A model generated the notes under the pieces. It searched no databases and was not told the DNA's origin. It was given only the letters and a program-made list of their open reading frames with translations. A program made the position numbers and the translations under genes. A stretch of 64,000 nucleotides of DNA from Polynucleobacter sp. MWH-Berg-3C6 (GTDB lineage Bacteria > Pseudomonadota > Gammaproteobacteria > Burkholderiales > Burkholderiaceae): the NCBI RefSeq assembly GCF_018881855.1, contig NZ_JACVPN010000001.1:682001-746000 (forward strand). The letters are read 5' to 3'. This document shows, piece by piece, positions 1,505 to 56,714 of this stretch. Numbering within the stretch: the stretch's first letter is position 1; every line of letters starts with the position of its first letter.

Positions 1505-3112
1505 GTGTTGTCCGCATCTAATATCACCATGCAGTTTGGGGCAAAGCCCCTGTTTGAAAACATTTCCGTGAAGTTTGGCGGCGGTAATCGTTATGGCCTT
1601 ATTGGTGCAAACGGTTGCGGTAAATCTACCTTCATGAAAATCCTTGGCGGTGAGCTTGAGCCTACTAGCGGTAACGTGAGCTTAGATCCAGGCATTCGTC
1701 TCGGTAAGTTGCGTCAAGATCAATTTGCTTATGAAGACGTACGTGTACTTGATGTAGTAATGATGGGTCACGAAGAGATGTGGAAGGCTGCTGCGGAGCG
1801 TGATGCAATTTATGCGAATCCAGAAGCCACAGATGAAGATTACATGAAGGCTGCTGAACTCGAAGGCAAGTATGCTGAGTATGGCGGTTACACAGCAGAA
1901 GCAAAAGCAGGTGAGTTGTTATTAGGGATTGGTATTCCGACTGAGCAGCACGATGGCCCAATGAGTAACGTTGCTCCAGGCTGGAAGCTCCGTGTATTGC
2001 TAGCGCAAGCATTGTTTTCTGACCCGGACGTACTTTTACTTGATGAGCCAACCAATAACTTGGATATTCACTCCATTCATTGGCTTGAAGACATCCTCAA
2101 TCAAATTAAGAGCACCATCGTCATCATTTCCCATGATCGCCACTTCCTCAATGAAGTCTGTACGCATATGGCCGACATGGACTATGGAACCTTGAAGGTC
2201 TATCCAGGTAATTACGATTCCTATATGTTGGCATCTGTGCAGGCCCGTACCCAACAGTTAAGTAATAACGTGAAAGCCAAAGAAAAGATTGCTGAATTAG
2301 CAGCATTCGTGGCGCGCTTCTCTGCGAATGCTTCCAAAGCCCGTCAAGCTACTTCACGTCAGCGTCAGTTGGAAAAAATTGAGATTGTTGAAGTGAAGCC
2401 TTCTTCACGTCAAAATCCATTTATTCGTTTTGATACTGAGAAAAAACTTCACAACATGGCAGTCGAGTGCAATGCACTTACCAAAGCCTATGACCGCGTG
2501 ATTTTTAAGAACTTTAAGCTTGGCGTTCGTGCTGGCGAGAAGATTGCCATCATTGGACAAAACGGCGCTGGTAAGACCACCTTACTCAAATCCATTCTCA
2601 GCAAACGTTTTGACGGTATTGCAGTCGATAGCGGTGATGTGAAGTGGGCTGAGAATGCGAAGGTCGGCGTAATGCCTCAAGACAATACCGAGATGTTCGC
2701 TAAAGACGAATTACTCATGGACTGGATGAATTGGTGGCGTAATACTGGCGATGATGATCAAGTGATTCGCGGAACCTTAGGGCGCCTACTGTTCTCTGGC
2801 GATGACATTGGCAAATCCGTCAAAGTCTTATCTGGTGGTGAAAAGGGCCGAATGATTTGGGGTAAATTGATGCTCCAAAAATATAACGTCCTAGCAATGG
2901 ATGAGCCGACCAATCACATGGATATGGAATCGATTGAAAGTTTGCAGATTGCCTTAGAGAAATTCGATGGCACTTTGATTTTCGTATCCCATGACCGTGA
3001 ATTTGTATCTGCATTGGCCAATCGCATCTTAGAGGTCAAGATGGATGGTACGGTGGTAGATTACTCAGGTACCTATGAAGAGTATTTGCGTAGTCAGGAG
3101 TTGACTGGCTAA
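1505..3112 (+). CDS. ybiT: ABC-F family ATPase, YbiT type
   Basis: Cytoplasmic ABC-F protein of 535 residues with two nucleotide-binding domains and no membrane segment. Members act on ribosomes, either rescuing stalled translation or tuning elongation. Walker A of domain 1 is GANGCGKS (residues 34-41), with Walker [12 protein letters not shown]. Domain 2 has GQNGAGKTT, signature LSGGEKGR and Walker [11 protein letters not shown]. Between them is the charged linker with RQATSRQRQ and [11 protein letters not shown], which is characteristic of the YbiT branch. The GTG at 1505 gives [11 protein letters not shown], which aligns with the usual YbiT start; a TTG follows at 1508. The gene ends in a bidirectional terminator shared with the opposing DUF1289 gene. 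Confidence 0.92.
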
Positions 3113-3149
3113 ATTACTAGCTAAGCAATACTCTAGGTAGAAAAAATAT

Positions 3150-3178
3150 AAGCCTGCGAATTACGCAGGCTTATTTTC
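3150..3178. terminator. Bidirectional intrinsic terminator
   Basis: AAGCCTGCG (3150-3158) and CGCAGGCTT (3164-3172) form a perfect 9-bp stem with a five-base loop, followed by ATTTTCTT on the plus strand and an A-rich tract before it. It serves the ABC-F gene. Its loop and distal arm contain the stop codon and last codons of the opposing DUF1289 gene. Confidence 0.85.
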
Positions 3179-3424
3179 TTTGGCCTGCCGCTGAAAGCGC
3201 ATCGCAGTTCCGTCTTCGCGAATACGTTTCCAAACGGACAGTTTCTCTTCATCGGAGAGAAAAACCCAATTACTCACCTCAGATAAAGTGCGACCACAGC
3301 CTTGGCAGATTTCGTCATAGAGGGTCGTGCAAACTCCAATACAAGGTGAGTCAGATGCATCGTCCCCTGTAGAGAGTGAATGTGAGCCATCTTGAGTTTG
3401 CGGGTTGACGCTATCAGAATTCAT
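3161..3424 (-). CDS. DUF1289 family small cysteine-rich protein
   Basis: An 87-residue protein of the DUF1289 family. The domain at about residues 25-68 has four cysteines (SPCIGVC, then ICQGCGRTL), likely binding a metal ion, followed by the family WVFLSDEEKLSVWKRI segment. Molecular function is not established. The start ATG overlaps the stop of the upstream FemAB-like gene by 4 bp (ATGA), so the two are translationally coupled. The polar N-terminal 25 residues have no recognisable motif. The stop codon lies within the intrinsic terminator at 3150-3178. Confidence 0.85.
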   Translation of the reverse strand: MNSDSVNPQTQDGSHSLSTGDDASDSPCIGVCTTLYDEICQGCGRTLSEVSNWVFLSDEEKLSVWKRIREDGTAMRFQRQAKENKPA

Positions 3425-4593
3425 AGCTGTACTTTAGTCGATTTCAGTGGACTATGCTCGGCAAGCTCATCGACATAGGCGCCGATACCTTGGTGTTCAC
3501 GATCGAGAAAATGTTCAATTGCCTTCGCAAATCTAGGGTCTTTGATTAAATGTGCGGATTGGATAGTCGTTGGCAAAAAGCCGCGTGCCATTTTGTGTTC
3601 GCCTTGGGCGCCTCCCTCAAAGGTCTGGATGCCTTCAGCGATACAGTACTCAATAGCCTGGTAATACGCAGTTTCAAAGTGCAAGCAAGGAATATGTACT
3701 TTGGCACCCCAATATCTCCCAAACACTTTGCCTGATGGTCGATCTACCACTAGTAGGGAGGCTGCAATAGGGGCCTCATCCTTTTCGGCAATGATTAAAT
3801 GGAGATTGTCTGGCATCCGTTTTGCCCATAGCTTAAGGAATGATTCATTTAAGTAAGGGGCTGAATGATGCTCGAGATAAGTATTTTGATAGCAGTCATA
3901 AAAGAATTCCCAGTCTTGATTAGTTGATTCTTTTCCGGGAACGTGTCTAAACGTAATGGCTTCTCGTGCCACTTGTTCGCGTTCACGGCGAATATTCTTC
4001 CGACGCTTCATGGTGAGCACAGACAAAAACTGTTCAAAACTTTGAAAGTCTTGGTTATGCCAATGAAACTGTACAGAATCTCGGAGTAAGAAGCCTTGCT
4101 CCTTCAAATAGTTTGCTTGGACACTTGGGGGAAATAGGATGTGCGCCGAAGATAAGTTATTTTCCAACACTAAAGACTTTAATCCATTGATTAATGCATT
4201 CTGAATTTCAACGGCATTGAATTTGGGGCTGTATAAGATGCGTGCACCCTGCACGGGGGTGAAGGGGATGGCGCAAAGTACCTTAGGGTAATAGTTCATG
4301 CCTTGCTGCTCGTAAGCCTGCGCCCAAGACCAGTCAAACACAAACTCTCCATAGGAGTGCTGCTTTAAATACAGGGGCATTGCGCCGATTAATTGGCTAT
4401 CTTGCTTTAAAAGTAAATGGGCAATTTGCCATCCAGTGTTGCCGCCCACGCAACCCGTCTCTTCGAGAGCGCTTAAGAATTCATGCCTCAGAAAAGGGCC
4501 GGCATCATGGCTGAGTAGGGCGTTCCAGTCTGGAGCAGATACATCAGAGAGATGATCTAGGATGTCTATTTGGAATTTTTCAGAGCCTATCAC
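3421..4593 (-). CDS. FemAB/GNAT-like protein (DUF482, peptidoglycan-biosynthesis-recognition family)
   Basis: A 390-residue cytoplasmic protein of the DUF482 (COG3146) group, a GNAT-fold family related to FemAB aminoacyl transferases. Its function is only predicted. The characteristic segments are KRRKNIRRERE (about residue 195), GRYWGAK with HIPCLHFETAYYQAIEYCI (about 290-315) and FEGGAQGEHKMARGFLP (about 322-338), all typical of the family. The GTG start at 4593 overlaps the GloA stop codon by one base, and the 3' end overlaps DUF1289. So gloA, this gene and DUF1289 read as one minus-strand operon after the ETF-QO gene. No substrate can be read from the context. Confidence 0.85.
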   Translation of the reverse strand: MIGSEKFQIDILDHLSDVSAPDWNALLSHDAGPFLRHEFLSALEETGCVGGNTGWQIAHLLLKQDSQLIGAMPLYLKQHSYGEFVFDWSWAQAYEQQGMNYYPKVLCAIPFTPVQGARILYSPKFNAVEIQNALINGLKSLVLENNLSSAHILFPPSVQANYLKEQGFLLRDSVQFHWHNQDFQSFEQFLSVLTMKRRKNIRREREQVAREAITFRHVPGKESTNQDWEFFYDCYQNTYLEHHSAPYLNESFLKLWAKRMPDNLHLIIAEKDEAPIAASLLVVDRPSGKVFGRYWGAKVHIPCLHFETAYYQAIEYCIAEGIQTFEGGAQGEHKMARGFLPTTIQSAHLIKDPRFAKAIEHFLDREHQGIGAYVDELAEHSPLKSTKVQL

Positions 4594-48462: not shown

Positions 48463-49251
48463 CTAGCCGATTTTATTTGCGCCATCCACAAAAGGAATGG
48501 CATGTTCAACGGTATCCCAAATAAACCGACCAGATGGGCTTTGCTGTTCTTCAACAATGTGTGCCACTAAGCCTGCAGATCGTGAGATTACGGCAAATCC
48601 TCGCATCACAGCGGTTGGTATTCCAATTTCCCCTAAGAGCGCAGCAACTGCACCGGTAGCATTAATGGTGATGGGTCGACCAGCCACCTCATCTACTGCC
48701 TTAGATAGAGTTTCAAGCGCTCGAATATGATCACCTTTCAATTCCTTTTCAGCGCGACCCATTTCGAGGAGCTTGTAGGCGCGGGGATCTATTGGTTTAT
48801 GCAAATGGTGTCCGAAGCCAGGTACTGCTGCTTTAATCTTTTTGTAGTGTTGCGCAATGCTTAGCGCTTCCGCATAGGGGTCTGGAGCTGCCGTAATACG
48901 ATCCAGTAGTCCCGAGCAATTTTCCATAGTGCCAATAAAGGAGCTTCCGACTGCCAATAAGCCTGCCGAAACAGCGCCTTGAAGGTTTTCAGGGGCGCTC
49001 ATATAAATAAGTCTTGTGGCAATTGCACTAGGAGTAAGACCATGCTCCATTAGAACGATGAGAACAACATCAGTGATGCGGATATCAACCCCACGTGGTT
49101 CTCTTCCTAAAATTTGCATCAACATGACTTCAGTAAAAGTCTTTTTCCCCATCAAGTCTTCAACTAAATCTGCATTTCGGTAATGCAAGCTAGTAAGAGT
49201 GTGAGTACAAAGTCCGGTGATGGGAGTCTTCTGAGAATTTTGGCTTGTCAT
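48463..49251 (-). CDS. Citryl-CoA lyase-like protein (citrate synthase superfamily)
   Basis: 262 residues, about 160 shorter than citrate synthase. It keeps the superfamily core, with MEHGLTPSAIATRLIYMSAP carrying one catalytic His and GFGHHLHKPIDPRAYKLL another; the RSAGLVAHIVEEQ block near the C-terminus is the substrate/CoA end. Proteins of this size and pattern are the citryl-CoA lyases, which split citryl-CoA to acetyl-CoA and oxaloacetate. Here the neighbours (acyl-CoA ligase, two SDRs, Bug protein) suggest C-C cleavage or condensation of another CoA ester. Function inferred. Confidence 0.8.
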   Translation of the reverse strand: MTSQNSQKTPITGLCTHTLTSLHYRNADLVEDLMGKKTFTEVMLMQILGREPRGVDIRITDVVLIVLMEHGLTPSAIATRLIYMSAPENLQGAVSAGLLAVGSSFIGTMENCSGLLDRITAAPDPYAEALSIAQHYKKIKAAVPGFGHHLHKPIDPRAYKLLEMGRAEKELKGDHIRALETLSKAVDEVAGRPITINATGAVAALLGEIGIPTAVMRGFAVISRSAGLVAHIVEEQQSPSGRFIWDTVEHAIPFVDGANKIG

Positions 49252-49266
49252 AATTTATATCGCTGT

Positions 49267-50772
49267 TCAATTTGTGGAGAGAGTATTTATCACGGCACTT
49301 TTGAGTAATTTACCGACGTTAGAGCGCGGCAGACTCTCGTAAAAATGAATATGTTTAGGTGTTTGTACTGGGCCTAGAAGATTACGCACAAAGGTAATGA
49401 GTGTAGCTTCATCAACATGTTGTCCAGGATGTAGTTGAACGGCAGCTTGTACAGTTTCACCCCATTTTTCATCTGGCAGGCCAAAGACAAGGCATTCATG
49501 GACAGCTGGGTGCTGGCTCAGCGCGTTTTCTACATCCACTGGGTAGACGTTAAACCCACCTGTGATCACGATATCCTTGAGCCTATCTTTTAGATAGAGA
49601 AACCCTCTTGAGTCAATCAGGCCACGATCGCCGGTATGAAGCCAGCCATCAATAATAGTTTCAGCCGTCTTCTCTGGCATACGCCAGTAACCATTCATTA
49701 GCAAGTCACCCCGCGCAACTACTTCACCGATTTCACCGGTTGGTAATAATTTTCCTTCTGGTGACATGATCGCCACATCACTAAACCAAGTTGGGCGACC
49801 AACCGCTGCCCAGTTATTTGGATCTTCAAAATCTTCAGGACGCATTACAGTCAAAATTTGGGGCGCTTCAGTTTGACCATACGTAGTTCCTAATACTGGA
49901 CCAAAGAAATCACGTACTTTGCGAACTTGCTCAGGAGGCATCGGTGCACCACCGTAAATGAGTCTACGCAATTTAGGGAAATCATTGCGTGATGCATTAG
50001 GCAAAGCCATTAGCATATAAACCAAAGTAGGCGGCATAAAGCAAACAGTCCCGTCACGCTCTTTAAAGGCAGATCTGACAACCTCTGCACCTTGGCCATC
50101 CAGTATTACGTGGCAACCACCTTGAGCAAGAATCGGTACGATATAGGTAGAAGTGCCATGTGTAATTGGTGCAGCGACGACATAGCGTTCATGTTCATCA
50201 AACCCCCATACATGAATCTGGTTGCTAATGTTTGCCATCCATGCTCGATAGGGCTGCATGACACCTTTAGGCGCGCCAGTAGTGCCACCCGTAAATTTGA
50301 TTGCCTGAATCGCATCTTGAGGTAGCTCAAAAGAAGGTTGTGGAGCATCCTCATGCAAGTCAATTAACTCATCCATGCTGCGAGCTGCAGAGCTTGAGTC
50401 TGGACCGGTATAAATCCAAGCCCCGGGGGCGCCCTGGAGTAGGTCTTGATTGGCGGCATCCAAAATCACGATCGATGGCTCAGTGACATTGATGATGCGC
50501 TGTATTTCAGGATGGGTGCTCTTGGGATTGAGTGGAATCCATACCTTGCCACATGCCAAAATAGCCAGCAGTGCAGTAATGTGATCAGCGCTATTGCCTG
50601 CGCAAATAGCAACCCGACTCTGCAGGGTTGGATCTAATGCAGCAAGCCCAGCCGCAAGTGCTTTAACGCGTTTTGCTAAAGACGCAAAATAAATTGGCCC
50701 TTGCGGAGTATCAATGGCAATACGATCAGGCCAACGCTGCGCGGCCCTCCAAAAAAAATCAATTGGAAACAT
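49267..50772 (-). CDS. AMP-forming acyl-CoA ligase
   Basis: 501-residue ANL-superfamily enzyme that activates a carboxylic acid with ATP and CoA. P-loop IKFTGGTTGAPKGVM (about 162-176), A5 TTYGQTEAPQ (about 294), A7 WLHTGDRGLI and A8 KDIVITGGFNVYPVDVE (about 408-424), and the catalytic lysine in SNVGKLLK near the C-terminus. Substrate class cannot be read safely; the gene sits between a Bug binding protein and a citryl-CoA lyase-like gene, suggesting the acid taken up by the first is activated here. Confidence 0.9.
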   Translation of the reverse strand: MFPIDFFWRAAQRWPDRIAIDTPQGPIYFASLAKRVKALAAGLAALDPTLQSRVAICAGNSADHITALLAILACGKVWIPLNPKSTHPEIQRIINVTEPSIVILDAANQDLLQGAPGAWIYTGPDSSSAARSMDELIDLHEDAPQPSFELPQDAIQAIKFTGGTTGAPKGVMQPYRAWMANISNQIHVWGFDEHERYVVAAPITHGTSTYIVPILAQGGCHVILDGQGAEVVRSAFKERDGTVCFMPPTLVYMLMALPNASRNDFPKLRRLIYGGAPMPPEQVRKVRDFFGPVLGTTYGQTEAPQILTVMRPEDFEDPNNWAAVGRPTWFSDVAIMSPEGKLLPTGEIGEVVARGDLLMNGYWRMPEKTAETIIDGWLHTGDRGLIDSRGFLYLKDRLKDIVITGGFNVYPVDVENALSQHPAVHECLVFGLPDEKWGETVQAAVQLHPGQHVDEATLITFVRNLLGPVQTPKHIHFYESLPRSNVGKLLKSAVINTLSTN

Positions 50773-50778
50773 TAGTAA

Positions 50779-51771
50779 TTATTCAGCTTTAGCACCAGAC
50801 GCCTTCACAACATCGCGCCAGCGTTTCACTTCAGAAGCTTCAAATGCAGCCATCTTTTCAGGGCTTCCAGGCTCTGGAGTTGCAGCTAACTCTTGCATAC
50901 GCTGACGAACTTCAGGCGAGTTGAGTGCTTTATTCAGTGCTGTATTTAATTGCGTGATGATCGGTTTTGGAGTCCCTGCTGGGGCAACCAACGCAAACCA
51001 GGACTGGACATCAAACCCTGGATAGCCTGATTCAGCAATCGTAGGCACATCTGGCAAAAATGGCGAGCGTTGAGCGCTAGTCACAGCAATCGGACGCAGT
51101 TTTCCGGCTTTAATATGGGGTAAGGCAGAAGGTGCGTTATCAAACATCGACTCAACCTGACCGCCAAGCAAATCGGTTACCGCAGGAGCGCTACCCTTGT
51201 ATGGAATATGCAGCATTTGGATTTTTGCTTGCATCTTAAACATTTCGCCGGAAAGGTGAATGGATGAACCGCTTCCCGAGGATGCAAAGGTTACGCCATC
51301 CTTTGAGTCTTTCGCATAGCGCACATAGTCTGCTACGGTTTTTACAGGCAAGCTCGGATTTACAACCAAAATATTGGGAATCTTGGCCATCATGCCAATC
51401 GGCTCAAAATCTTTAATAGGGTCATAGCTCAAATTAGGGTAAAGCGTAGCGTTGATGGTATTTGCTATAGAGAAGGCATATAACGTATAACCATCGGCAG
51501 GTGAGCGAGCCACAAGCTCAGCGCCTACGTTGCTGTTCGCACCAGGGCGATTTTCTACAACAATGGATTGGCCCAGCGTATTGCTCATGCTGACAGAAAT
51601 CAAACGCGTTAATACATCGGTTGCCCCGCCAGCAGAGTAGCCAACAATAATCTTGATTGGTTTTGTAGGCCATCCTGCAGAGGATTGCGCAAATGCCGGA
51701 ACTGAAATAGCAGTAATCAGGGCGGCAAAAATAATCAGCAAGCCTTTTTTGGGCGTGAAATGCAAAGACAT
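50779..51771 (-). CDS. Bug-family periplasmic solute-binding protein (TctC)
   Basis: 330 residues with a signal peptide (hydrophobic about 10-26, cleavage likely after AFA) and the mature start WPTKPIKIIVGYSAGGATD, the Bug/TctC hallmark. Bug proteins bind carboxylates such as citrate, glutarate or pyroglutamate through main-chain contacts. No TctA/TctB membrane genes are adjacent, so it must use a permease elsewhere or act as a sensor. Strong GGAGGAG site before the ATG. First gene of the catabolic operon 46914-51771. Confidence 0.92.
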   Translation of the reverse strand: MSLHFTPKKGLLIIFAALITAISVPAFAQSSAGWPTKPIKIIVGYSAGGATDVLTRLISVSMSNTLGQSIVVENRPGANSNVGAELVARSPADGYTLYAFSIANTINATLYPNLSYDPIKDFEPIGMMAKIPNILVVNPSLPVKTVADYVRYAKDSKDGVTFASSGSGSSIHLSGEMFKMQAKIQMLHIPYKGSAPAVTDLLGGQVESMFDNAPSALPHIKAGKLRPIAVTSAQRSPFLPDVPTIAESGYPGFDVQSWFALVAPAGTPKPIITQLNTALNKALNSPEVRQRMQELAATPEPGSPEKMAAFEASEVKRWRDVVKASGAKAE

Positions 51772-51902
51772 AGTTCTCCTCCAGTTTCTTAATTATTCAG
51801 TATTTATAACACCAAAGTAGCCCAGATGCGTTCTTGGTGCCGGCGGCATACAGGCGCTTGTAAAACCCGTTTATTAGGGTATATCACTAGTTAATTATTA
51901 AA

Positions 51903-51939
51903 CTTCACAACTTCACAACTTCACAAGTTGTGATATAGT
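51903..51939 (+). promoter_or_regulatory. Repeat-rich operator and promoter of the small HTH gene
   Basis: Three perfect tandem copies of CTTCACAA (51903-51926) run into GTTGTGA, so that TCACAACTT-CAC-AAGTTGTGA (51913-51933) is a perfect 9-bp inverted repeat. TTCACA (51912-51917) and TATAGT (51934-51939), 16 bases apart, form a plausible promoter embedded in it. The arrangement is what an autoregulated operator would look like; binding by the 59-residue HTH protein just downstream is inference. Confidence 0.6.
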
Positions 51940-51958
51940 GTAAGAACTGGGAGATGAA

Positions 51959-52138
51959 ATGAAGAGACAAATACCGAAAACACATCAAGCCTTGGAGTGG
52001 GTGGGGAAGGGCATGACTGCTGCTCAAGCAGCCAGAAAAATGCAAATTTCAGAATCCAGTGTGTATGCCGCTCTAAGAAAGACAAAGGCGAAAGAAGTGG
52101 GTTGTTGCCCAACATGTGGTCACAAAATAAGGAACTAA
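51959..52138 (+). CDS. Small HTH protein with a C-terminal zinc knuckle
   Basis: 59 residues. GGGAG (51949-51953) sits 5 bases before the ATG. Residues about 10-42 form a helix-turn-helix of resolvase/AlpA-like style (GMTAAQAARKMQISESSVYAAL) and the C-terminus has CCPTCGHKI (residues 49-57), three cysteines and a histidine able to bind a metal. I do not recognise a named family. The stop is one base from the next ATG, so the two are coupled. Likely a DNA-binding autoregulator of this operon; it may sense metal or redox state (inference). Confidence 0.75.
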   Translation: MKRQIPKTHQALEWVGKGMTAAQAARKMQISESSVYAALRKTKAKEVGCCPTCGHKIRN

Positions 52139-52139
52139 G

Positions 52140-52439
52140 ATGAAAAAGACTCTATTAGCAGCTGTATCAATTTCTGTAGCCGCATTTGCTTACGCCAATA
52201 CCAAACCATCAGATTCATCGGCATTGGTGAGTCAACAATGCCAAATTTCTGCTGAAGCCGTATCAACATTAAAAGGCTTGCGCTATGGCAATACATCAAT
52301 TAGAAAAGATGTATCTAGCCTCATTAATACCCATCTGAAAACTCCAGAGAATCGCGAGATCGCACAAAGAGCTTTAAATCTGATGATTGACGACAAATCA
52401 ACTGATGTAGCCACTCTAGAAGGCAGGTACTGCTCTTAA
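52140..52439 (+). CDS. Small exported protein of unknown function
   Basis: 99 residues with a clear signal peptide (MKKTLLAAVSISVAAFAYA, cleavage after AYA about residue 19). The mature part is mostly polar and helical, with two cysteines (SQQCQIS about 34, and GRYCS at the end) that could pair in the periplasm. No family recognised. Tandem to the small HTH gene at one base and 25 bases before the zinc-ribbon/Smr gene. Confidence 0.75.
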   Translation: MKKTLLAAVSISVAAFAYANTKPSDSSALVSQQCQISAEAVSTLKGLRYGNTSIRKDVSSLINTHLKTPENREIAQRALNLMIDDKSTDVATLEGRYCS

Positions 52440-52464
52440 TGGCAAAGGCTTTAGAGTATTAAGA

Positions 52465-52926
52465 GTGCCATCTACTGCGGAGTGTCCTGATTGCGGAAAT
52501 GTGCGGGCATTGTTTAATCAGTGTCCGCATTGTGGCTCTGATCATTTACCCACACTAAGTACCGACACAATCGAAATTAACATCAAGCAAGGTAGCCCCT
52601 ATGTTGAGGAAGCTCTGGATGAGCTCACCGAACAACTTCGTAAATGCCTAGATCTTGGAATAAAAGCAATTATTCTGATTCATGGATATGGCTCAAGCGG
52701 AGAGGGTGGTCGGATTAAATGGGCAATTCATGATGCCCTGGAAAACAACCGCTATTCAGATCGTGTCATTGAGTACTTCTTTGGCGAGAATGTGGCTTAT
52801 GGAACAGAGGCCTACCAGACGCTATTAAAAAGACGTCCAGGATTAAAGAGATACCTAAAACGCTTCAAAGAAGGTAATGCTGGTATGACGGTGTTATTGT
52901 TAGGAGCTCACCCAGGAAGTGCTTAG
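52465..52926 (+). CDS. Zinc-ribbon protein with an Smr-like domain
   Basis: 153 residues from a GTG at 52465; the frame is open upstream only to about 52420 with no other start. Residues 7-23 are a CPDC...CPHC zinc ribbon (C7, C10, C20, C23). Residues 36-148 resemble the Smr nuclease domain of MutS2: YVEEALDELTEQLRKCLDLG, then ILIHGYGSSGEGGRIKWAI (HGxG at 73-76) and GMTVLLLG. The usual LDLHG motif at the start of the domain is replaced by INIKQG, so nuclease activity is doubtful. The fusion and its place behind an HTH/zinc-knuckle gene are unusual. Confidence 0.75.
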   Translation: MPSTAECPDCGNVRALFNQCPHCGSDHLPTLSTDTIEINIKQGSPYVEEALDELTEQLRKCLDLGIKAIILIHGYGSSGEGGRIKWAIHDALENNRYSDRVIEYFFGENVAYGTEAYQTLLKRRPGLKRYLKRFKEGNAGMTVLLLGAHPGSA

Positions 52927-52956
52927 AATAGAGATATCTCAATCAGGATCATTCCC

Positions 52957-53292
52957 ATGGCAGCCAAAAAATCCAATATTGCAACAGAAGCAGCTGCAGC
53001 GAGTTCTGACCAGTTAATTGGAGAATTCAAAGCGCTCATGGCCGATGCTGAAGCATTAATAAAGGCAACAGAGGGTCATGCAGATGGCGCTCTTGGATCA
53101 ATCCGATCCAAAGCCCTTGAGACTATTGCTGGCGCTAAAGAAAGTCTTTCTGGTATTGAAGGCCAGTTGGCCGATAAGGCGAAAGCCGCCGCTGAGAGTG
53201 CGGATGACTTTGTACATCGCAATCCTTGGGAGGCAGTGGGAGTTGCCGCTGGACTAGGCTTATTAATTGGTCTATTTATTCGTCGTCGCTAG
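52957..53292 (+). CDS. DUF883 (YqjD/ElaB) family protein
   Basis: 111 residues. A long amphipathic helical region with Ala/Lys/Glu pattern (about 15-75) leads to one C-terminal membrane anchor VGVAAGLGLLIGLFIRRR (about 93-111). YqjD and ElaB are inner-membrane-anchored, ribosome-associated proteins of stationary phase. It is followed 6 bp later by a YqjE-like gene and then a YqjK-like gene, the same trio as in E. coli. Confidence 0.88.
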   Translation: MAAKKSNIATEAAAASSDQLIGEFKALMADAEALIKATEGHADGALGSIRSKALETIAGAKESLSGIEGQLADKAKAAAESADDFVHRNPWEAVGVAAGLGLLIGLFIRRR

Positions 53293-53298
53293 GCTGAT

Positions 53299-53667
53299 AT
53301 GTCCCAAGAAAATTTACTGTCATCGATTAAAAACTTAGCATCTACTGGCGCATCGATTGCGCAAACTCGCTTAGAGCTAATCTCGGTTGATGTACAAATT
53401 GCTAGATCCAAATTCATCAGCTTGCTAGTAATGATTGTGAGTGCCTTGTTTTTCTTATTCTTTGGCTTGGTCATGCTCGCATTATTCATTGTCATCTATA
53501 GCTGGGAGTCTGATCGCATGATGGCTCTCGGTGTTCTGACGAGCGCCTTTCTATTGATTGGCCTTATTCTGGCCGTACTGATCATGCAATCATTGCGTAC
53601 TATGCCCAAATTATTTGAGGCATCTATTGCTGAACTTGCTAAGGATCGTGAGGCGCTCTCCAAATGA
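53299..53667 (+). CDS. YqjE-like (phage holin family) membrane protein
   Basis: 122 residues with two membrane segments, about 37-62 (FISLLVMIVSALFFLFFGLVM) and 78-100. Preceded by an amphipathic N-terminus (LLSSIKNLASTGASIAQTRLELISVDVQ) characteristic of YqjE/DUF1469, annotated as phage-holin superfamily III by similarity. It overlaps the next gene by 4 bp (ATGA). Not evidence of a prophage: the neighbours are host envelope genes. Confidence 0.85.
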   Translation: MSQENLLSSIKNLASTGASIAQTRLELISVDVQIARSKFISLLVMIVSALFFLFFGLVMLALFIVIYSWESDRMMALGVLTSAFLLIGLILAVLIMQSLRTMPKLFEASIAELAKDREALSK

Positions 53668-53945
53668 GCGCTACCTTAAAAGATTTGGAGCTTCGTCAGC
53701 ATGAGCTTAGAGCCCAGGCTAGCCGAGAGCGCAAACAATTTTCAGAACACTTTGAGGTCTGGGAGAAACCGCTCTCTTGGGCTGACAAAGGTGTTGATAC
53801 ATTTCATTTTCTAAAAAATAATCCAATTCTCTGGACTAGTGCATTCGCAGCGCTGGCGCACTACAGACCTAAGTTAGCCAGTAAGTTCCTTGCTGTAGGT
53901 TGGGGTGCAATGAAGCTTTTGAAAAGTGCCAAGAAGCTAATCTAG
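53664..53945 (+). CDS. YqjK-like protein
   Basis: 93 residues, basic, with a charged N-terminal helix (LELRQHELRAQASRERKQF) and a mildly hydrophobic C-terminus (WTSAFAALAHYRP...FLAVGWGAMKLLKSAKKLI). The position after YqjD and YqjE and the RxELR pattern match YqjK. Its stop codon and that of the opposing apt gene share the same CTAG. Function unknown. Confidence 0.75.
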   Translation: MSATLKDLELRQHELRAQASRERKQFSEHFEVWEKPLSWADKGVDTFHFLKNNPILWTSAFAALAHYRPKLASKFLAVGWGAMKLLKSAKKLI

Positions 53946-54460
53946 CTTACCAGTACCGATTTATTGGTGATTCCATGTTGATCAAGCAGTTGCTTGCCAT
54001 TTAAGAACGAGATTTCCAGCAAGGTAATTGCGCCACACACTTCGAATCCGGCGCTACGTAATAATTTATTGGCAGCAATCAGTGTTCCGCCTGTGGCTAA
54101 TACATCATCAATCAGCAAAATCTTTGCATTATTGGGAATGCTTGACTGTTGAATCTCCAGGGAGTCAGAGCCATATTCCAGGCCGTAGAATTCTTTATGA
54201 GTGGCAAGCGGAAGCTTATTGGGTTTCCTGGCAAGAGCGAGGCCTTTATGAGCATGATGCGCAAGAGCAGAGCCAAAAATAAAGCCCCTGGATTCAATGC
54301 CTAAAATATGGGTATAGTCAAAGGACTGTGCCAGGGCCTCTATTTGAGCAATAGCCTCTTTGAAGGCTGCTGGATTAGCCAATAATGGTGAGATATCCCT
54401 AAAGAGAATTCCAGGTTTCGGAAAATTGGGCACTCCGGGTAGATAATCTAATAAATTCAT
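53942..54460 (-). CDS. apt: Adenine phosphoribosyltransferase
   Basis: 172-residue type I PRTase making AMP from adenine and PRPP. FPKPGILFRDISPLL (about 13-27), GIESRGFIFGSALA (about 55-68), and the PRPP loop ILLIDDVLATGGTLIAANKLL (about 114-134). The N-terminus is a little shorter than usual. Its ATG is only 2 bp from the ATG of the divergent nucleosidase-like gene, so promoter and ribosome site lie in that gene. No clear Shine-Dalgarno precedes the ATG. Confidence 0.94.
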   Translation of the reverse strand: MNLLDYLPGVPNFPKPGILFRDISPLLANPAAFKEAIAQIEALAQSFDYTHILGIESRGFIFGSALAHHAHKGLALARKPNKLPLATHKEFYGLEYGSDSLEIQQSSIPNNAKILLIDDVLATGGTLIAANKLLRSAGFEVCGAITLLEISFLNGKQLLDQHGITNKSVLVS

Positions 54461-54462
54461 TA

Positions 54463-55029
54463 ATGGCAGACATGAAAACAGATCTCCTCATTATCACCGC
54501 ATTGGAATCCGAGCTCAAGCGCAATGTACTCCCAACAGGGGTGGAGATTGTTTACTCGGGCCTTGGAAAAATTAATGCGGCATTAGCGAGCATGAAGGCA
54601 ATTGATCAATTTAACCCCAGTGCGATCATGAACTTTGGTACCGCAGGAAAAATTAATCCTCAATTAGATGGTTTGCTCCACATTGGTAAAGTGATTCAGC
54701 GCGATATGATGGCTGAGCCTCTTGCGCCAAGAGGCAAGACACCATTTTGCGAGAGACCGTTCGAATATCTTTCCTCCGGAAAGTACGTTTGTGGCTCCGG
54801 TGATAGCTCTGTCACTGCTTCCGATCCTTGGTTACTGAGTCAAGGGGTAGATCTGGTAGATATGGAGTTATTTGCTATAGCTTATGTTGCTAATCACCAC
54901 CAAATTCCGTGGCATTCGTATAAGTACATTACGGATGATGCAAATGAGAGCTCAGGTAATGATTGGCAGGAAAAAGTAAACCATGGACAAGATCTATTTA
55001 TCCAGAAGTTAAGACAACTGCTGAGTTAA
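54463..55029 (+). CDS. Nucleoside phosphorylase-like protein (MTA/SAH nucleosidase type)
   Basis: 188 residues, shorter than the ~230 of Pfs. The nucleoside phosphorylase fold is shown by LLIITALESELK (N-terminus), YSGLGKINAALASMKAI, IMNFGTAGKIN (about 65), the VDLVDMELFAIAYVA block (about 128-142, with the ribose-binding ME) and a D in YKYITDDAN that would be the catalytic acid. ATG at 54463 or 54472 (MKTDLL). Next to apt it probably releases adenine from methylthioadenosine or a related nucleoside for salvage; the substrate is inferred. Confidence 0.8.
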   Translation: MADMKTDLLIITALESELKRNVLPTGVEIVYSGLGKINAALASMKAIDQFNPSAIMNFGTAGKINPQLDGLLHIGKVIQRDMMAEPLAPRGKTPFCERPFEYLSSGKYVCGSGDSSVTASDPWLLSQGVDLVDMELFAIAYVANHHQIPWHSYKYITDDANESSGNDWQEKVNHGQDLFIQKLRQLLS

Positions 55030-55037
55030 GTACTGAT

Positions 55038-56714
55038 ATGGCCCTAGATACCTCTAAGCCTTGGCTAAAAAATTATCCACAAGGCGTTCCTCATGAGATT
55101 GGACCTCTAAGTCATACATCGTTGACTGAGTTAATTGATGAGTGCCTTACGCGCTTTGGCAAGCGGAAAGCTGTGGAGGCGATGGGTGGGTTTTTCTCAT
55201 ACAGAGAGCTCGACAAACTCTCCCATGACTTTGCTTCCTATTTACAAACCCTGAACTTAGAGAAGGGTGCACGTGTTGCCTTAATGTATCCTAACGTCAT
55301 AGAGTACCTAGTGGCAATGATTGGCACTCTGAGGGCCGGTTATGTAGTGGTCAATATCAATCCACTCTATACAGCGCGAGAGCTTGAGGCGCAATTACTT
55401 GATAGTGGGGCAGCAGTTCTGGTGGTAATGGAAAACTTTGCTCACATCTATCAAGAAGTAAATCCTATCAAGACTATTGTGCAAGTGATTGTGAGTAGCC
55501 CAGGTGAGTTAATGGGCCTCAAAGGTCGCCTCATTAATTGGGTTGCAAGAGATATTAAAAAGTTAATACCTTCTTGGGAGTTTGCCCACATCACTTTTAA
55601 GGATGCGCTTGATATAGGTAGTCGGCATCATTTTCAAAAGCCCAAAATTAGTCTAGATGACATTGCCTTCTTGCAATATACCGGTGGCACTACTGGAACC
55701 TCTAAAGGGGCCGTGTTGCTTCACCGCAATATTCTGTCTAATGTGGCGCAAATAGAGTATTGGTTAAATCCTGGTTTGAAACAAAAGCCAGAGCAGCAGT
55801 TGGTATTTTTGTGTGCCTTACCTATGACCCATATCTTTGCTTTAACGGCCTGTGCTTTGCTGGGTATTGCTAAAGGAAGTCTCTTAGTCCTCGTGCCTAA
55901 CCCACGCGATATCACCGGCTTTATCAAAATGCTAATCAAGCACCCGAACATCAATATTTTTCCAGGTGTAAATACACTTTTCCATGCACTGATTCACCGA
56001 CCTGAATTTAAGAAGGTAAAACTTCCCAATTTGTTGGTCACGATTGGTGGAGGTATGGCCGTTCATAAGAAAACAGCTGATCATTGGCAAGCGCTGACAG
56101 GTGTGCCAATTGCTCAAGGCTATGGTTTATCGGAGACATCGCCTGTAGTCTGCGTGAACACGCCTCTAGAAAAACATTTCACCGGGCACATTGGCATGCC
56201 TTTACCGAGTACCGATGTTGTCATTCTGGATGATGATGAAGTTGAGCTACCAAATGGAACTCCCGGCGAGATCTGTATTCAGGGGCCACAAGTGATGGCG
56301 GGCTACTGGAATAAACCAGAGGAGACGGCACATTGCATGACTACCGATGGTTTCTTTAAGTCAGGAGATATCGGCTTCATCACGGATGAGGGCTATGTAG
56401 AAATTGTTGACCGTAAGAAAGACATGATTGTGGTAGCAGGCTTTAAAGTTTTTCCTAATGATGTAGAGGATCAATTGGTTCAAATGGATGGCATTAGAGA
56501 ATGTGCTGTGATTGGTGTACCACACCGTAAGCTAGGAGAAATAGTCAAAGCTTATGTCGTCAGAGATAACCATCACTTAACTGAGGCTGATATCTTGCAA
56601 TACTGCAAAGACCATATGACCAGTTACAAACGCCCCCGGAAAGTGGTCTTTATTAACGAACTTCCCAAATCTAATGTCGGTAAGATTTTGCGCCGAGAGC
56701 TCAGAAACTTATAA
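55038..56714 (+). CDS. fadD: Long-chain acyl-CoA synthetase
   Basis: 558 residues from the ATG at 55038 (MALDTSKPWLKNYPQGVP, the usual FadD start); an in-frame start inside the preceding gene would add 25 unrelated residues. ANL motifs: YTGGTTGTSKGAVLLHRN (about 213-230), GYGLSETSPVVC (about 360), SGDIGFITDEG and DRKKDMIVVAGFKVFPNDVE (about 455-475), and catalytic lysine in KSNVGKILRREL at the end. Activates fatty acids for beta-oxidation. Convergent with the dehydratase gene, no clear terminator. Confidence 0.92.
   Translation: MALDTSKPWLKNYPQGVPHEIGPLSHTSLTELIDECLTRFGKRKAVEAMGGFFSYRELDKLSHDFASYLQTLNLEKGARVALMYPNVIEYLVAMIGTLRAGYVVVNINPLYTARELEAQLLDSGAAVLVVMENFAHIYQEVNPIKTIVQVIVSSPGELMGLKGRLINWVARDIKKLIPSWEFAHITFKDALDIGSRHHFQKPKISLDDIAFLQYTGGTTGTSKGAVLLHRNILSNVAQIEYWLNPGLKQKPEQQLVFLCALPMTHIFALTACALLGIAKGSLLVLVPNPRDITGFIKMLIKHPNINIFPGVNTLFHALIHRPEFKKVKLPNLLVTIGGGMAVHKKTADHWQALTGVPIAQGYGLSETSPVVCVNTPLEKHFTGHIGMPLPSTDVVILDDDEVELPNGTPGEICIQGPQVMAGYWNKPEETAHCMTTDGFFKSGDIGFITDEGYVEIVDRKKDMIVVAGFKVFPNDVEDQLVQMDGIRECAVIGVPHRKLGEIVKAYVVRDNHHLTEADILQYCKDHMTSYKRPRKVVFINELPKSNVGKILRRELRNL

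Follow-up and report, generated by a model that had tools for sequence, protein, structure and literature searches.

Among the closest described counterparts of the locus reported here is the yqjCDEK operon of Escherichia coli, which has been linked to ribosome hibernation. There, yqjC encodes a predicted periplasmic protein of 122 amino acids and heads yqjDEK; the published account describes sigma-S promoters and CsrA repression for yqjC and yqjD, an own promoter of yqjD located inside yqjC, and a halt in growth when YqjD or YqjE is in surplus (PMC10746276). We analyzed a 64,000-nt stretch of DNA from Polynucleobacter sp. MWH-Berg-3C6 (hereafter “the window”) that carries a similar arrangement: as in E. 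coli MG1655 (L108), a gene for a small exported protein, here termed exp, lies ahead of yqjD, yqjE and yqjK in the same order. In the window an smr gene is inserted before yqjD, unlike in E. coli, whereas two other genomes (G039 and G040) carry exp directly before yqjD. Moreover, no helix-turn-helix (HTH) gene stands directly in front of the E. coli operon, unlike in Polynucleobacter, where exp is preceded by a small HTH gene, hth. The exp protein has no similarity to E. coli YqjC (hhalign Prob 0.8) and no Pfam match, leading us to reject its identification as YqjC (DUF1090); a search of its own genome for DUF1090 gave no match.

Two small HTH proteins are informative about how hth might act. 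ArdK is described as binding both direct and inverted repeats, with natural operators that overlap the -35 (PMC9723621), and the 68-residue BldC of Streptomyces as lacking the MerR dimerization domain and binding head to tail on tandem direct repeats (PMC5859096). Since both proteins are small, carry an HTH and recognize direct repeats, the mode of action proposed here for hth has precedent. Like the ArdK/KorA plasmid repressors, hth is a small HTH protein, and ArdK on inverted or direct repeats (Z 5.7, 5.5) was among the tied best matches to its predicted fold on a second look, the others being Tn3 resolvase and a -35-binding domain of a sigma factor (Z 5.4); Z values of 5-6 are unspecific for a small HTH. 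ArdK, as described, has a separate C-terminal dimerization domain of beta strands and a helix, for which the 59 residues of hth leave no room, and KorA/ArdK did not appear among the sequence matches of hth. BldC, in its published description, has a MerR-like winged HTH and a many-target regulon, whereas hth has one operator per gene copy and a cysteine knuckle. No MerR family occurs among the 17 Pfam matches of hth at E <=1, while the fold lists leave room for a MerR-like protein. Finally, the layout of an HTH followed by a knuckle recurs in an HTH-CPxCG protein (P0002 in G466; MW202512; IMG/VR L141) that sits in phage or prophage DNA, unlike hth of Polynucleobacter.

A six-gene locus and its predicted promoter

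Direct reading confirmed all six open reading frames between 51959 and 53945 on the plus strand, downstream of a repeat-bearing promoter (Table 1) and flanked by the minus-strand genes tctC and apt. The earlier note on this DNA had described six plus-strand genes with a triple repeat and an inverted repeat at their promoter, and an exported-protein gene coupled at one base; both descriptions were borne out. Its assignment of a zinc-ribbon/Smr protein and a YqjD-YqjE-YqjK trio agrees with Pfam: Smr (33.5 bits vs a cut-off of 25.7), DUF883 with DUF883_C, Phage_holin_3_6 and YqjK all passed their cut-offs among the six window ORFs, and the DUF883, Phage_holin_3_6 and YqjK-type genes follow one another in that order on one strand. 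Gaps of 25 nt and 30 nt separate exp from smr and smr from yqjD. The only terminator-like site found lies within yqjE, with none between exp, smr and yqjD, and no Rfam family reached its gathering score in a search for RNA elements in 49000-56000.

Table 1. Features of the hth-exp-smr-yqjDEK locus (positions in the window)
Feature	Position	Strand	Description
Upstream element TAGGGTATATCACTA	51875..51889	+	conserved in long-operator class promoters
Operator, three tandem CTTCACAA units	51903-51910, 51911-51918, 51919-51926	+	direct reading; genus-wide pattern
9-bp inverted repeat TCACAACTT-CAC-AAGTTGTGA	51913-51921, 51922-51924, 51925-51933	.	direct reading
Predicted sigma70-type promoter	51912..51939	+	-35 TTCACA 51912-51917; -10 TATAGT 51934-51939
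Shine-Dalgarno GGGAG	51949..51953	+	direct reading
hth	51959..52138	+	59 aa; helix-turn-helix, C-terminal CCPTCGH knuckle; predicted autorepressor
exp	52140..52439	+	99 aa; predicted exported; starts 1 nt past hth stop
smr (zinc-ribbon + Smr-domain protein)	52465..52926	+	GTG start, 153 aa; Pfam
yqjD (YqjD/ElaB-type DUF883 protein)	52957..53292	+	Pfam
yqjE (YqjE-type membrane protein)	53299..53667	+	Pfam Phage_holin_3_6; E. coli-like position
yqjK (YqjK-like protein)	53664..53945	+	Pfam PF13997

Because a consensus scan places the -35 at 51912 with a spacer of 16 and a TG preceding the -10, the repeats form the -35 and spacer of the predicted hth promoter: the -35 falls within the second CTTCACAA unit, and the inverted repeat abuts the -10. 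The scan performs at chance level (4 promoter-like sites vs a shuffle mean of 4.1), and support for this promoter therefore comes from its conservation. The repeats themselves are not driven by composition, since the triple-repeat 24-mer, allowing <=3 mismatches, occurs once and had no match in any of 100 shuffles, while the 9-bp inverted repeat, also found once, had a match in 1 of 100. When we searched the strain's own 1.99-Mb genome for TTCACAANTTCACAA with <=1 mismatch, this site alone was recovered, as two overlapping matches, with no second site that would indicate a wider hth regulon.

The upstream element TAGGGTATATCACTA has no other zero-mismatch copy in its own genome, and the corresponding columns, -31 to -15, are conserved across 21 promoters of the long operator class described below; by eye, an altered form also precedes some other promoters. 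It is possibly a site for another regulator. We rejected the upstream element (TAGGGT..TCACTA) as a regulon motif, as it was unenriched at <=2 mismatches (67 matches vs 109 for the reversed control).

hth, exp and their operator across the genus

The hth gene is present in 116 of 186 Polynucleobacter genomes, including 97 of the 144 of good quality (and thus absent from 47). With a median pairwise dN/dS of 0.089 across 71 sequences, it is under purifying selection, and the 59-residue frame on which the earlier note built its reading is conserved as a protein. Much of the HTH and a G-C-C-P-T-C-G motif are invariant in a 36-row alignment; Cys49, Cys50 and Cys53 do not vary, and His55 is replaced by tyrosine or glutamine in some rows. 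Since His55 varies and one knuckle alone offers too few ligands, any complete zinc site would have to draw on a second chain, in the manner of a zinc hook. In Pfam, HTH_28 and Sigma70_r4_2 fall just below their cut-offs. The predicted structure (pLDDT 86) comprises a three-helix HTH, with its last helix ending at residue 47 of 59, and a short knuckle tail; the alignments behind the structure models of this study were shallow (Neff 1.28 and 1.70).

In each of the 51 loci compared, exp comes directly after hth, in most of them 1 nt away, and its median dN/dS is 0.050 and 0.055 in two length classes (36 and 35 sequences); its frame is broken in one P. necessarius locus (L058). In a draw of 398 genomes from the family, exp and strong matches to hth fall in the same 48 genomes, and exp was found in 1 of 25 genera; one further genome (G051) carries a decayed exp fragment. 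The model of exp shows four helices behind an N-terminal stretch modeled with low confidence, which looks like a signal peptide. Sequence searches against solved structures returned weak epsin matches alone (best E 0.12), and Foldseek gave no match at E <=0.001. The exp model resembles saposin A (Z 8.2, rmsd 2.5, 72 residues aligned), at a score under the trusted level for helical bundles. The saposin fold has three disulfides; exp has two invariant cysteines, at positions 34 and 98.

We next followed the operator through the genus. The pattern TTCACAANTTCACAA-N8..25-TATAGT was found in 97 of 186 genomes, and its reversed control in none. An ATGARR lies 14-24 nt past the pattern in 95 of these genomes, including G178, in which the first hth codons stand at a contig end; the remaining two are G045, with hth 18 nt beyond the pattern, and G056, whose contig stops 19 nt past it, at the expected hth start. 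This strict pattern occurs in 95 of the 116 genomes with hth (missing from 21) and in 2 of the 70 that gave no match to hth, both times at a contig end. Across all 186 genomes we found no site away from hth, save one at a contig end where the gene would be expected to start, which is what a single-target autoregulator predicts. A regular expression placed 59 of 72 distinct loci, with promoter lengths of 30 bp (31 loci), 28 bp (6), 36 bp (21) and 38 bp (1); the remaining 13 did not fit. Mean information in the operator is 1.89 bits for the 30-bp and 1.84 for the 36-bp class, vs 0.38 and 0.90 just upstream, a comparison that is partly circular since rows were chosen by regular expression for the repeat. 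The short class consists of a direct repeat; in the long class, TTGTGA-like units of reverse orientation are present as well. As a minimal regulator, hth would have a single target for each copy of the gene, with an operator that occurs naturally in dozens of variants. Four loci from genomes of ~1.55-1.7 Mb (L094, L104, L105, L106) are decaying, with broken smr, yqjE or exp frames; in one of them (L104, genome G033) the operator is lost and the hth frame is still open.

Gene order was conserved in part. The earlier note had proposed following it as a check: hth-exp holds in every one of the 51 loci and smr comes next in 41, and other neighbors occupy the rest, namely a histidine kinase gene (5), a hydrolase gene on the opposite strand with smr behind it (4), and a contig end (1). 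Six genes as a conserved unit were not borne out; judged by gene order, the conserved unit is hth plus exp, two genes with variable neighbors. Genomes G013 and G122 possess smr-yqjDEK without the pair, and smr relatives occur in 166 of the 186 genus genomes. Since hth is missing from a third of the good-quality genomes and the downstream genes vary, control of yqjDEK by hth would not be universal. The kinase, with HisKA and HATPase domains, is not bound to the cassette, as 88 of the 186 genomes carry relatives at E <=1e-100, the strain's own among them, 223 kb from hth. The opposite-strand gene between exp and smr encodes an alpha/beta-hydrolase and appears in scattered lineages (L063 5552-6646, L068, L071 and L080, where its frame is broken up). 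In P. yangtzensis MWH-JaK3 (L046) we noted by eye a tyrosine-recombinase-like gene near hth (2769-3965), and no yqjD was found after smr.

A probable duplication of the cassette, and relatives outside the genus

We joined the hth and exp proteins of each locus, dropped duplicates (among them L082, identical to L081) and built a tree of the 79 that differed; it places the five kinase-linked rows in one clade (100/99). This clade groups (98/94) with smr-linked copies of G114, G159 and G153, three genomes that also carry a kinase-linked copy, eight rows in all. The simplest history is that the kinase-linked copies arose by one duplication. We then compared 86 distinct rows, each consisting of the hth protein and 100 bp of upstream DNA. 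Residue 34, in the recognition helix, is serine in 80 rows and glycine in six, namely the five kinase-linked rows and L082. An exact direct repeat is found in 65 of the 80 Ser34 rows and none of the six Gly34 rows, a link that amounts to one duplication and hence one evolutionary event rather than six. Among the 15 Ser34 rows lacking an exact repeat, 14 retain at least one TTCACAA unit and L104 none. In the Gly34 rows, the L078 operator has its first unit inverted (TTGTGAA-C-TTCACAA), those of L074, L076 and L077 have an inverted unit followed by a degenerate one, and L081 and L082 contain neither unit. On the history of one duplication, the kinase-linked copies exchanged Ser34 for Gly and their operator lost the direct repeat.

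The promoters of the two groups differ likewise. By script, a -10-like hexamer lies 17-20 nt ahead of the ATG in 79 of 80 Ser34 rows; in the Gly34 rows the -10 stands 7 nt from the ATG, in five of six by script and in the sixth (L078, TATAGT) by eye. At this distance, a leaderless or near-leaderless mRNA is predicted for L074, L076, L077, L078, L081 and L082. The L082 copy (G102:C4) is smr-linked and has a kinase-type promoter and HTH, as though the other copy had taken its place. Because this copy ahead of smr has both kinase-type parts, regulator and operator travel together. A tree-placed duplication in which protein and operator both changed makes a compact test case for regulator/operator co-divergence, and for how one HTH might read direct and inverted repeats alike.

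Outside the genus, relatives of hth were scarce. All 48 strong matches in the family draw fall within Polynucleobacter, and three weak ones lie elsewhere, in G466, G206 and G279. The G466 match is the small protein P0002, with an HTH and then CPCCG (hhalign Prob 98, E 3e-13, 36% identity over 53 columns). Its neighbors include terminase, portal and endolysin genes of a prophage; phage MW202512 has a related protein (48%), and an 84-kb IMG/VR contig (L141) encodes an identical one. By these comparisons it is the one clear hth relative found outside the genus. The G206 match was rejected as a chance hit, out of frame inside a longer gene. Searching 50,697 phage records yielded no hth match at E <=1, and a profile search (A3) of viral contigs yielded no confirmed relative; plasmid records gave seven weak matches, each stopping short of the knuckle. 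We accordingly discarded the idea that hth is a mobile or phage gene in Polynucleobacter. On the evidence of the one relative, a phage origin of hth is plausible.

Proposed mechanism and alternatives

Considering the locus and its conservation, we think it probable that hth-exp is a genus-specific, self-contained cassette in which hth represses its own promoter, with read-through into smr-yqjD-yqjE-yqjK. In this model, hth would bind the TTCACAA units forming the -35 and spacer of its promoter, as a dimer assembled either head to tail or via a zinc hook, and bound hth would block the promoter and hold hth and exp at a low set level. Read-through, in one transcript extending through yqjK, would place the downstream genes under the same low-level control. 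The signal may be either zinc or the oxidation of knuckle thiols. Solely by analogy to yqjCDEK of E. coli, the system could provide dosage control over growth-arresting membrane and ribosome-docking proteins, and a dedicated repressor would meet the same need for tight dosage as in E. coli. The autoregulated unit of the earlier note stands insofar as the operator overlaps the core promoter, is paired with hth and occurs at no other site in the 186 genomes, but the conserved unit is two genes rather than six; the “envelope or stress” role it suggested was not supported as stated, and what points that way is the E. coli analogy alone.

We also suggest, far more tentatively, a history in which a phage-type HTH with a zinc-hook tail was domesticated in Polynucleobacter as a one-operator repressor, was paired with the new gene exp and took over control of yqjDEK, which in E. 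coli lies with sigma-S and CsrA; after duplication before the kinase, regulator and operator would have co-diverged, from direct to inverted or degenerate repeat and to a leaderless mRNA, with no cross-talk between the copies. The titles and abstract openings listed in literature searches contained no description of this locus, and DUF883 is absent from the main text of two P. asymbioticus transcriptome papers; the combination of hth, exp and operator appears to be new. It also suggests that the yqjDEK genes, which are little understood, are wired independently beyond the enterobacteria.

How far transcription extends is the point at which a different reading has some force. The pair may form its own two-gene transcript, with smr-yqjDEK transcribed separately and their adjacency mere neighborhood, which we judge possible but less likely than read-through. 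Such an arrangement would suit the nine of 51 loci in which a gene other than smr follows exp, the wider spread of smr relatives than of hth (166 vs 116 genomes), the two genomes with smr-yqjDEK and no pair, and the promoter described for E. coli yqjD inside yqjC (PMC10746276). It sits less well with the short gaps from exp through smr to yqjD in the window and their freedom from terminator-like sites, with smr being kept next in 41 loci, and with the two genomes in which yqjDEK comes right after exp.

Repression by hth itself faces two further challenges. The operator repeats could be bound by another conserved regulator while hth acts elsewhere, and the conserved element at 51875-51889 does suggest a further input. 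We consider this unlikely, because the operator pattern tracks hth rather than the downstream genes and has no other site in 186 genomes, and because L082 joins a kinase-type promoter to a kinase-type HTH ahead of smr. Activation of the promoter by hth, which we regard as a little less likely again, would fit an imperfect -35 (TTCACA) and the presence of activators among the matched folds; against it, the units occupy the -35 and the spacer, a position from which a bound protein should obstruct polymerase, and the promoter, with its TG and TATAGT, looks self-sufficient. Overall, autoregulation by hth is the best reading of these patterns, and repression its most likely mode.
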